From Candidatus Roseilinea sp. (GTDB taxonomy: Bacteria; Chloroflexota; Anaerolineae; J036; Brachytrichaceae), in NCBI GenBank assembly GCA_026003755.1, contig BPHV01000003.1, forward strand, positions 62,001 through 126,000: a stretch of DNA of 64,000 nucleotides, read 5' to 3'. A program made the translations under genes and the position numbers. The notes under the pieces are model-generated. The model was given only the letters and a program-made list of their open reading frames with translations. It had not been told where the DNA came from and did not search any database. Of the stretch, positions 1-30,051 are shown one piece after another. Positions within the stretch are counted from its first letter, which is position 1. The number at the start of each line of letters is the position of its first letter.

Positions 1-853
1 GGGCGTTATTCGTCACGTCCAGCCGCAGCACGTAGAGCGGCTCGCTGTGGGCGGAGCGCGCCGCCAGATGCAGGCCCCTGCGCTGACCGACGGTGTAGAA
101 GGGCAGCCCCTCATGCCGGCCGATCACTTCCCCGCGCGTGTTCACGATTGGCCCTGGCCGGGCGACCCCCGGCGCGTTGCGGAGCAAGAAGCCGCGATAG
201 TCCCCCTGCGTCAGAAAACACAGATCCTGGCTCTCTGGGCGTTCGGCGGTCGGCAGGCCGAAGTCCCGCGCCATTTGGCGCACCGCTTCCTTGGTGTGCT
301 GACCGACCGGGAACATCACGCGCGCCAAATCCTTCTGGCCCAGGACGTGCAGGACGTAGCTCTGGTCTTTCTGCGCGTCTTTCCCTTTGAGAAGGCGGTA
401 GCGTGCTCGCGGCAGAGGCGCGGCGTCGGCTATTGTCGTCGCTTGATCCACGCGCGCGTAATGGCCGGTCGCCAGATAGTCTGCGCCTAGGGCGAGCGCC
501 TTCTGCATCAGGAAGCCGAAGCGGATCGCGCGGTTGCAGGTGAAGCACGGATTGGGCGTGGTGGCGTCGGCGTAGCCGGCGATCCACGCGTCCACGACGC
601 GCTGTTTGAAGACATGCTCGGCGTGAATGTCATAGAAGGGAATGCCGAGCAACTTCGCGATGGCGCGCGCATCGGCGATGGCTTCCGGCGCGCAGCAACG
701 ATTGGCGTTGCGTTCCGCATCTGCACGCGCTTCCTCGGCCCATAGGCGCATCATAATGCCGATCACGTCGTAGCCTTGCTGCACCAGCAAGGCCGCCGCG
801 ACCGACGAATCCACGCCGCCGCTCATGGCTACCACTACGCGCACCCTCTCCAT
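1..853 (-). CDS. mnmA: tRNA-specific 2-thiouridylase MnmA (3' end beyond the window)
   Basis: Thiolates U34 of Lys, Glu and Gln tRNAs using persulfide sulfur and ATP. Reading from the ATG at 853, the protein begins MERVRVVVAMSGGVDSS, with the PP-loop SGGVDSS at residues 11-17. The two redox cysteines of the family sit in NPCFTCNRAIRF (about C106) and ESQDLCFL (about C212). About 284 of the usual 350-370 residues are present; the C-terminal beta-barrel end lies outside the window. The cysteine desulfurase gene ends 30 bp upstream on the same strand, so sulfur donor and user are probably one operon. Family identity is clear from the motifs. Confidence 0.95.
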   Translation of the reverse strand, partial: MERVRVVVAMSGGVDSSVAAALLVQQGYDVIGIMMRLWAEEARADAERNANRCCAPEAIADARAIAKLLGIPFYDIHAEHVFKQRVVDAWIAGYADATTPNPCFTCNRAIRFGFLMQKALALGADYLATGHYARVDQATTIADAAPLPRARYRLLKGKDAQKDQSYVLHVLGQKDLARVMFPVGQHTKEAVRQMARDFGLPTAERPESQDLCFLTQGDYRGFLLRNAPGVARPGPIVNTRGEVIGRHEGLPFYTVGQRRGLHLAARSAHSEPLYVLRLDVTNNA

Positions 854-27914: not shown

Positions 27915-28730
27915 TCAGCCGGGCCGGCGTTGCGCCGCTTCCATTTTGCCCGCGTGTTCGCGAATCACCTGCAGCCACATCTCGGCATGCGCTTCTAAAC
28001 CGGCATCGGAGAAGTGGCAGCCATCGTAGCGGTATTCTGGTCCAAGCTGATCGGTGTCCGGCCCGAGGAAGATGCCCAGCGTGGGATCGGCCAGGCCAAT
28101 TTGGGCCGCGCGGATCGTCTCGTGAGGGGGATACTGGCCGCAGCGCGTAGCGATTGCCACGAACGCCGGCGCATCTACGCCCAGCGCGCGGATGGCCTTC
28201 AGCATGGCCCGAAAGCGTTGTTGGTAGTCCTCGGCCGGCGTGCCCAGCGCGGCGTCGCTCTCGCCCTGATGCCACAGCAGGTGGGTGAAGCTCAGCCGGG
28301 CCTGCTGGGCTTCGCGAACGTTGCGCAGCAAGTCTTTGTGCAAGAGGCCCCCCGGCGCCCACTGCGCGATCTCCGTCGCGCCAATTGAGGCCGGCACGAA
28401 CACCACGCGATCGTAGAGCTTGGCGGCGATGATTCGATCACCGAGTCGGGTCCATACGCTGCCGCCGTTGCCGTCTGCGCCGGCCAGCGGGTCACGGGCG
28501 CGGCTGTAGCGCCCGCGGAAGAAGCTGAGCACACGCGGCCCGGCGGTGCGCCGGCTCTCGCCCCAGTTGCCGGCGTTCGATTGGCCGAAGACCAGCGCGA
28601 CCATGACGCGGGGGCGCGCCGATCGCGTCGGTGCAGGTGATTGGGCGTGCGCCGGCAGCAGCGCGATCGCCGTGGCGATGAGCACTACCCGCATCGCCGT
28701 CCTACGGAGGAGCATAGGCCGAAGGCTCAT
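27915..28730 (-). CDS. Exported SGNH-type sialate O-acetylesterase family protein (CE6-like)
   Basis: 271 aa from ATG 28730, chosen because it makes an ATGA overlap with the upstream gene and gives a signal peptide (MSLRPMLLRRTAMRVVLIAT then AIALLPAHA). An ATG at 28694 with an AGGA site is the alternative. The catalytic serine is S51 in VFGQSNAGNWG, the HQGESD block is at 154-159, and the Asp/His pair is D236/H239 in YDGCHFSDAG. This is the DUF303/SASA group, which deacetylates sugars or xylan. The substrate is not determined. Confidence 0.83.
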   Translation of the reverse strand: MSLRPMLLRRTAMRVVLIATAIALLPAHAQSPAPTRSARPRVMVALVFGQSNAGNWGESRRTAGPRVLSFFRGRYSRARDPLAGADGNGGSVWTRLGDRIIAAKLYDRVVFVPASIGATEIAQWAPGGLLHKDLLRNVREAQQARLSFTHLLWHQGESDAALGTPAEDYQQRFRAMLKAIRALGVDAPAFVAIATRCGQYPPHETIRAAQIGLADPTLGIFLGPDTDQLGPEYRYDGCHFSDAGLEAHAEMWLQVIREHAGKMEAAQRRPG

Positions 28731-28978
28731 CGGGCGATGATGCCGGCGATGAGGATGAGGAGCGCCAGCCCAGCGAGCGCCGCCGCGACGATGACTAACA
28801 CGCCGGATAGCCACATCGCCCGTCCGTGGCGGCGGTGCATTGCTGCGCCGCGCTGTAGCTCGGCCGCGTTCGCCGAGGGCGCGCCCACCACGCTGATGAG
28901 CCACCACGCGCGCGCGCAGTAGGCGTATTGGCCGATGTCGCTGGCCCGGATCACGTGTTGGTGACGGAAGTCGGACAC
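28727..28978 (-). CDS. Cas4/Dna2-like N-terminal box fused to a membrane helix
   Basis: 83 aa. Residues 8-33 (HVIRASDIGQYAYCARAWWL) match the N-terminal box of Cas4/Dna2-type nucleases (I-x-x-Y-x-x-C-x-R-x-x-x-L), followed by a G-x-x-x-H segment (G44-A-A-M-H48, then H51-G) as in those enzymes. The nuclease core is absent; instead residues 57-80 form one membrane helix. C21 is the position of the first Fe-S cysteine of Cas4. No cas genes are near. It overlaps the esterase start by ATGA. The function is unknown; resemblance is by eye only. Confidence 0.6.
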   Translation of the reverse strand: MSDFRHQHVIRASDIGQYAYCARAWWLISVVGAPSANAAELQRGAAMHRRHGRAMWLSGVLVIVAAALAGLALLILIAGIIAR

Positions 28979-29046: not shown

Positions 29047-30051
29047 GTGCCGGTCTGGCTTTCGGCTCTTTTCATCGCGATTCCCACCTACTGGTACGCG
29101 CGCCTGGTGCGCGGCATTGACCGCTTTGAACAGGAACCGGCCAAGTATCTCATCGCCGCGTTCTTGTGGGGCGCGCTCCCGGCGGCGTTCATCTCGCTCG
29201 TCTTGCAATTGATCTTCTCGTTGCCGGTGTCGTACTTGTGGGGTGAGTCGGCATCCATGGCGGCCACTTCGATCGTCTTCGCGCCGTTGACGGAGGAGCT
29301 GGCCAAAGGATTGGCGGTCGCTGCGGTTTACCTCTGGCGCCGGCGCGAGTTCGATGGCTGGGTAGACGGCATCGTGTACGGCTCGACGGTGGGCTTCGGC
29401 TTTGCCTACATCGAGAACGTGCTCTACCTGGCAAACGCCGGTGTGTTGGCGGACTGGATTGAGTTGTTCGTCTTGCGTGTGATCGTGTTTGGCTTCATGC
29501 ACGGCTTCTACACCTCGCTCATCGGCATGGGCTTTGGCGTTGCGCGCCATGCCCCGTCGCGGTTGCGCGCACTCTGGAGCATCGCGCTGGGCTGGGCGGC
29601 AGCGATTGCCGTGCACGCGATCCACAACACGTCTGTCACACTGGTTGAGGCGAGCAGCGGTTCGACGCTGCTGGTCACCGCCCTCAACTATGGGTTGCTG
29701 ATCGTGCTGATGTTGGGCTTGCGCTGGCTGAGTGCGCGTCGCGACCGTCAGATGTTCAAGGCCTACCTCGCCGATGAGTCGCCGGATGTCATCACCCCAG
29801 AAGCCTATGCCGTCCTCTCAGGCGTACGGGTGAATGCAAAATCGCGCAGCGCGCCGCGGCTCGGCAAGTCGTTCTACCACCTGGCGGGCGAGTTGGCGCA
29901 GCGCAAACGGCAGCTCATCGAATATGGCGAAGATGTGGCGGAAGAGATAGGTCGCTTGCGCATCCAGCTTCGCGAGCTGAGCTATCCGCAAGTGCGCGTG
30001 GCATCCGCGGCGCAGTCGTTGGATGCCGCCGATCCCGATAAGAGCAGATAG
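29047..30051 (+). CDS. PrsW family intramembrane glutamic/metallo-protease
   Basis: 334 aa, about eight membrane helices. PrsW motifs are present: PLTEELAKGLAV (E83, E84), FAYIENVLY (E123), FGFMHGFYTSLIGMG (H152) and VHAIHNT (H190, H193). In Bacillus, PrsW cleaves an anti-sigma factor; no such target is near. The C-terminal ~90 residues (RSAPRLGKSFYHLAGELAQR and coiled coil) are a soluble extension. The GTG start at 29047 has no Shine-Dalgarno and a TATAAT at 29032-29037, so the transcript may be leaderless. Confidence 0.9.
   Translation: MPVWLSALFIAIPTYWYARLVRGIDRFEQEPAKYLIAAFLWGALPAAFISLVLQLIFSLPVSYLWGESASMAATSIVFAPLTEELAKGLAVAAVYLWRRREFDGWVDGIVYGSTVGFGFAYIENVLYLANAGVLADWIELFVLRVIVFGFMHGFYTSLIGMGFGVARHAPSRLRALWSIALGWAAAIAVHAIHNTSVTLVEASSGSTLLVTALNYGLLIVLMLGLRWLSARRDRQMFKAYLADESPDVITPEAYAVLSGVRVNAKSRSAPRLGKSFYHLAGELAQRKRQLIEYGEDVAEEIGRLRIQLRELSYPQVRVASAAQSLDAADPDKSR

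Follow-up and report, generated by a model that had tools for sequence, protein, structure and literature searches.

Cas4 proteins (DUF83; PF01930/TIGR00372) are nucleases whose ordinary members carry all of their motifs in one soluble chain of ~171-221 amino acids. Four cysteines are reported in all Cas4 proteins (PMC5704561), and SSO0001 and Pcal_0546 are reported to be 5′ to 3′ ssDNA exonucleases (PMC3466216, PMC4176176). Whereas CAS-Cas4 proteins adjoin cas1/cas2, solo-Cas4 proteins lie outside cas loci and form a separate group in trees; solo-Cas4 is reported in many Chloroflexi and its role is described as open (PMC5704561, section 5). A RecB-like fold is also found in the AddB/AdnAB and Dna2 iron-staple nucleases, which are large, soluble, helicase-linked single chains, and structural matches to the model described below extend to the human exonucleases EXO5 and MGME1, which are single-chain proteins whose aligned domain carries no membrane helices. 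None of the papers listed in literature searches describes a Cas4 that is split or located in the membrane.

The Candidatus Roseilinea genes described here differ from these systems in their architecture. The Cas4 motif set, cysteine pattern and predicted fold are distributed over two chains of 83 and 171 amino acids, both of which carry a membrane helix where the fold is divided, and the first cysteine and the GxxxH motif sit on the separate small protein (hereafter the N-half; the larger protein is the C-half). The pair is not classed as an ordinary Cas4 because two membrane-helix chains replace one soluble chain, and it also has no attached helicase.

The N-half is encoded on the minus strand (28727..28978) of the window, which is the entire 64,000-nucleotide stretch of DNA that was analyzed. 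Its reading frame begins with a GTG codon at position 28978 and ends with a TGA codon at 28729-28727. In agreement with the original prediction, the 83-amino acid product consists of a Cas4 N-terminal box (residues 10-53; 28820..28951, minus strand) followed by a single predicted membrane helix (residues 60-78; 28745..28801, minus strand). The box, which is supported by a TIGR00372 match and by invariant alignment columns, includes Cys21 (28918-28916), Gly44 (28849-28847), His48 (28837-28835) and His51 (28828-28826). Cys21 is the only cysteine of the protein, which carries no PD-(D/E)XK core of its own.

An operon with an exported esterase, smc and crtI had also been proposed, and the gene arrangement agrees with it. 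The N-half stop codon and the start codon of a SASA-family esterase gene (27915..28730, minus strand; Pfam SASA, 1.7e-18) share the sequence ATGA, and smc and a crtI-like gene, the latter named by eye, follow. Counting the window, the order crtI-smc-esterase-N-half is seen at four loci within the genus, and we regard the esterase as a neighbor in this genus and not as a part of the nuclease. Divergent from the N-half is a gene for a PrsW-family intramembrane protease (29047-30051, plus strand; E=2.1e-41), and the PrsW cluster also adjoins the N-half in loci L002 and L003.

Residues 11-53 of the N-half align with positions 2-44 of the 180-position TIGR00372 profile (E=1.3e-4; 21.9 bits relative to a curated cut-off of 65). 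Pfam Cas_Cas4 likewise matches below its cut-off (E=0.0085), and the eight PADLOC models that match are all Cas4 models (best 3.4e-5). Judged from sequence, this resemblance exceeds chance although it falls below every curated cut-off. Single comparisons were weaker, with a probability of only 4.7% when hhalign was used to compare the N-half profile with one Cas4 of the same genome, and by a PDB search with this profile in which a designed coiled coil ranked first (E 0.0021) and the Cas4 structure 8d3l second (0.014).

Homologues provide a broader basis for evaluation. In a hand-picked alignment of 43 N-halves (A1), Ala12, Cys21, Gly44 and His48 do not vary, conservation reaches at least 90% for Ile10, Ser13, Glu14, Gly16, Arg23, Trp25, Trp26 and His51, and TIGR00372 matches 37 of these proteins at E<=0.01 (best 3.1e-7). 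The original prediction would have been undermined by homologues lacking the cysteine or the G-x-x-x-H pattern, and both are retained in all 43. The resemblance to the N-terminal part of Cas4 is real and probably reflects homology. The suggestion that the protein might be widespread also held: among 298 genomes from the class, 210 carry a homologue (E<=0.01), as do 67 of 301 from the phylum (E<=0.001). The two closest named loci belong to uncultured Anaerolineae MAGs and are 87% and 80% identical.

A search of the same genome with TIGR00372 yielded five matches, one of which (G000:C2:206010-206375) covers profile positions 57-178 only. This match lies within the gene for the 171-amino acid C-half (G000:C2:205875-206387), which is outside the window and on a different contig from the N-half gene. 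In the C-half, an N-terminal membrane helix is followed by a Cas4 core that carries PD..ExK, QxxxY and C-x2-C-x5-C motifs and lacks the N-terminal box. The residues involved are Asp62 (motif II), Glu75 and Lys77 (motif III), Gln92 and Tyr96, and Cys158, Cys161 and Cys167; the cysteine spacing equals that of Cys188/191/197 in SSO0001. At 70.1 bits, the C-half exceeds the TIGR00372 cut-off that the N-half does not reach.

The two proteins are complementary in their coverage of the profile (2-44 and 57-178) and in their motifs. The first cysteine and GxxxH reside on the N-half, and motifs II and III, QhXXY and three cysteines reside on the C-half, so the four-cysteine set of Cas4 is present only when the two are taken jointly. 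In a second hand-picked alignment (A2), TIGR00372 matches all 46 C-half homologues (best 1e-23), and all eight of the residues listed above are invariant. Phages searched for the C-half gave no match, and none of 102 pattern matches in viral contigs was confirmed.

Profiles of the two halves also tile a single Halarchaeum Cas4, with the N-half at 5-45 (8.9e-5) and the C-half at 58-174 (1.1e-17; both E-values scaled to a search of 177,635 sequences). Among the four ordinary Cas4 proteins given, the N-half profile reported one and the C-half profile all four. The same order is seen for PDB 8d3l_I, which is matched at 5-49 by the N-half and at 102-201 by the C-half (E 3e-8).

Two loci lend themselves to joint structural modeling. 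In locus L147, the two genes are in the same frame and separated by one TGA codon, which was read as W, and locus L126 carries a natural single-frame fusion with two membrane helices. The L147 read-through model (mean pLDDT 94.6, pTM 0.89) matches the Cas4 structure 7mi4_A with a Z score of 19.1 (rmsd 2.9, 181 residues aligned over residues 3..254, spanning both halves), and the L126 model (pLDDT 82.3, pTM 0.68) gives a Z score of 15.4 (rmsd 3.1, 159 aligned over 10..339), with both models being single chains in which the closeness of the halves is partly imposed. Scores of the L147 model were lower for AdnA (Z 14.3) and Dna2 (Z 11.6), and for EXO5 (7lwa, Z 12.6) and MGME1 (5zyu, Z 11.1). In this model, residues 37-77 form one helix that merges the box's second helix with the membrane helix, and a helix at 80-111 returns.

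The distribution of charged residues indicates how the two proteins are likely to be oriented. In a larger set, which left out duplicates as well as proteins with no usable start, Lys plus Arg is higher on the inner flank of the membrane helix in 88 of 91 N-halves and in all 97 C-halves. Therefore, the soluble parts of both halves should face the cytosol. For the N-half in the window, Lys and Arg residues are located mainly on the N-terminal side of its helix, and so its box should be cytosolic.

The two halves might be partners that no longer form a nuclease, and that serve instead as a membrane complex with a structural role or a role in binding DNA or RNA. As judged by eye, loci L124, L125 and L128 (genomes G407, G545 and G305) have lost both GxxxH in the N-half and the PD aspartate in the C-half, L127 has lost only GxxxH, and the L126 fusion has lost the aspartate. 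Thus, in some lineages a non-catalytic role exists or is tolerated. However, Asp62, Glu75, Lys77, Gln92 and Tyr96 are invariant in the 46 aligned C-halves, as are Gly44 and His48 in the 43 N-halves, as selection for catalysis would keep them, and we therefore consider loss of nuclease function an improbable explanation. The P value of a scripted classification of GxxxH and PD in 107 pairs was set aside because its patterns misread at least locus L029 and because the set took in three soluble fusions as well as an ordinary Cas4 and a locus with a frameshift.

Based on strong matches only (16 genomes with weak N-half and 13 with weak C-half matches were set aside), 193 of the 298 class genomes carry both halves, one carries the N-half alone, eight carry the C-half alone and 96 carry neither. 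The C-half is therefore present in 193 of 194 class genomes with a strong N-half match (Fisher P 2e-67, a value that ignores the relatedness of the genomes and is indicative only). Three of the eight genomes with the C-half alone, which belong to family f46, carry a single-chain form in which the N-box and core are joined. The other five (G043, G220, G228, G247 and G275) and the single genome with the N-half alone (G044) are mostly incomplete assemblies.

Outside the class, where C-halves were counted at E<1e-14, plus G331, the C-half is present in 34 of 35 genomes that carry the N-half. An additional 24 genomes carry the C-half with no N-half found by BLAST. Ten of these were inspected, and nine have an N-half-like frame directly upstream of the C-half; the tenth is L126, with both halves in one frame.

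Gene order was evaluated from the places listed for 149 of 210 N-half genomes and 150 of 214 C-half genomes. Both places are listed for 113 class genomes, of which 81 carry the C-half downstream of the N-half on the same strand (51 within 200 nt), 3 carry the halves far apart on one contig and 29 carry them on different contigs. The halves are kept apart in the family of the window (f1), and also in G010 (family f10), which is a single contig. Where 200-1500 nt separate the halves, the intervening gene was considered as a fixed partner and rejected, since the products are HEAT-like, L,D-transpeptidase-like or toxin-like (by eye) and represent no single family. Genome G499 carries the pair a second time (L130; G499:C30), and there its frames are broken and it is apparently decaying.

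Fusions are also found without membrane helices. Loci L160, L161 and L162 (G242, G222 and G107; family f46) encode soluble proteins that join the N-box to the core, and in these proteins motif III is changed, with its glutamate lost.

According to the original prediction, the N-half may be a Cas4/Dna2 fragment that lacks the nuclease core and has become a stand-alone membrane anchor or a remnant that binds an Fe-S cluster or nucleic acid. Such an identity would accommodate the single cysteine, the missing core and the operon with esterase and smc in this genome. We nevertheless reject it as very unlikely because another membrane protein provides the core, and this protein accompanies the N-half almost one to one, is usually encoded by the next gene and is fused to the N-half in some relatives. 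The earlier interpretation is therefore partly supported, being right about the resemblance to Cas4 and wrong about a remnant turned anchor.

Neighboring same-strand genes were surveyed for 71 loci outside family f1. Directly upstream, an M50 protease gene (rseP-like) is present in 21 loci from 3 families, and a translin-family gene is present upstream in 18 loci from 10 families. Downstream, nadK, recN and a gene for a membrane protein whose start resembles a zinc finger occur in 15-17 loci from 4 families, and DUF3467 and ssb genes occur in 6 and 5 loci, respectively. The translin-family neighbor matches the AfTrax structure 3zc1 (2.4e-25). Pfam Translin scored one of three neighbor members over its cut-off (5.7e-8) and two under, and another member had no match at E<=0.001. 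Among 81 genomes with both places listed, 59 carry the translin gene no more than 400 nt upstream of the N-half, and in six of these the C-half is on another contig. Examples of the upstream translin/AfTrax-like gene include L190, L189 and L174. The mere presence of translin was dropped as a diagnostic since 264 of the 298 class genomes have such a gene, and so only adjacency is informative. The translin, ssb and recN neighbors suggest nucleic-acid processing.

A function in CRISPR spacer acquisition, as for ordinary Cas4, would be in keeping with the homology and with the presence of two other cas4 genes in the genome, one of them beside cas1-like and cas2-like frames (by eye), but it is highly improbable given that a cas1 query matched none of the genes in the 76 loci that surround the halves, that the recurrent neighbors are rseP, translin, nadK, recN and ssb, and that the genome already encodes ordinary Cas4. 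In lying outside cas loci, the split pair is like solo-Cas4 and differs from CAS-Cas4. Since solo-Cas4 is reported in many Chloroflexi (PMC5704561), the C-half was probably already seen in that survey without its partner. Elsewhere in the genome, repeated short peptides at L057 (G000:C2 near 545530) resemble a CRISPR array beside cas1/cas2/cas4-like frames, and at L058 (G000:C3 near 28996) cas4 is fused to a cas1 part in which the frame seems to shift midway, both as judged by eye.

A similar pair of genes, overlapping by 4 nt, is found on Planctomycetota plasmids (Paludisphaera PALBO2 and Singulisphaera pSINAC03; L092 1091-1872 and L093 1139-1911). The first gene encodes a ‘hypothetical’ protein of 91 or 88 amino acids with a cysteine box and a hydrophobic tail, and the second a ‘PD-(D/E)XK nuclease’ with a hydrophobic head. 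These pairs differ from ours in being plasmid-borne and in their motifs, which are PDR and EWK versus PDY and EVK. DNA methylase genes are located nearby, and on a third Planctomycetota plasmid a C-terminal piece of shorter length lies close to a transposase gene.

The division of motifs, the co-occurrence, the gene order, the natural fusions, the predicted joint fold, and the membrane helices with their orientation signal are best explained if the 83-amino acid protein serves as the N-terminal subunit in a membrane-anchored nuclease of the Cas4 type (RecB-like PD-(D/E)XK) that is built from two subunits, between which the Fe-S ligands and the active site are shared. We hold this identity to be probable. 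The N-half would supply Cys21, as the first of the Fe-S cysteines, and His48 of motif I. Both would lie on a helical hairpin, the second helix of which would extend into the membrane helix. The C-half would supply Asp62, Glu75, Lys77, Gln92 and Tyr96 along with Cys158, Cys161 and Cys167. With both soluble parts in the cytosol, the two proteins would together make up a single Cas4 fold on the inner face of the membrane, where His48 would complete the metal site.

Such a complex would presumably be a physical heterodimer in the inner membrane, where one cysteine from the small subunit would join three from the large one in holding an Fe-S cluster. By analogy with the exonuclease activities reported for SSO0001 and Pcal_0546, we infer that the enzyme may carry out metal-dependent cleavage of single-stranded nucleic-acid ends, and its translin, ssb and recN neighbors suggest that it may help to repair or turn over DNA or RNA at the membrane. 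A more elaborate mechanism, which we propose only tentatively, is that two single-span proteins, each inactive alone, rebuild an Fe-S Cas4 only once their helices come together in the membrane. This membrane-gated nuclease might then, with the co-encoded translin/TRAX-family protein, keep the processing of nucleic-acid ends restricted to the inner membrane face, as a prokaryotic membrane unit for handling nucleic acids. If so, separation of the two genes, as in some lineages that include the family of the window, would permit separate control of the halves.

Among these environmental bacteria, a split nuclease arrangement appears to be common. What was a small hypothetical membrane protein, carried by about two thirds of the sampled class, becomes a predicted enzyme subunit, and an Fe-S staple and a nuclease active site are proposed to be shared by two membrane proteins. 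For solo-Cas4, the pair offers a candidate place (the membrane), a context (translin, ssb and recN) and an assembly that may be switchable via the supply of the small subunit.
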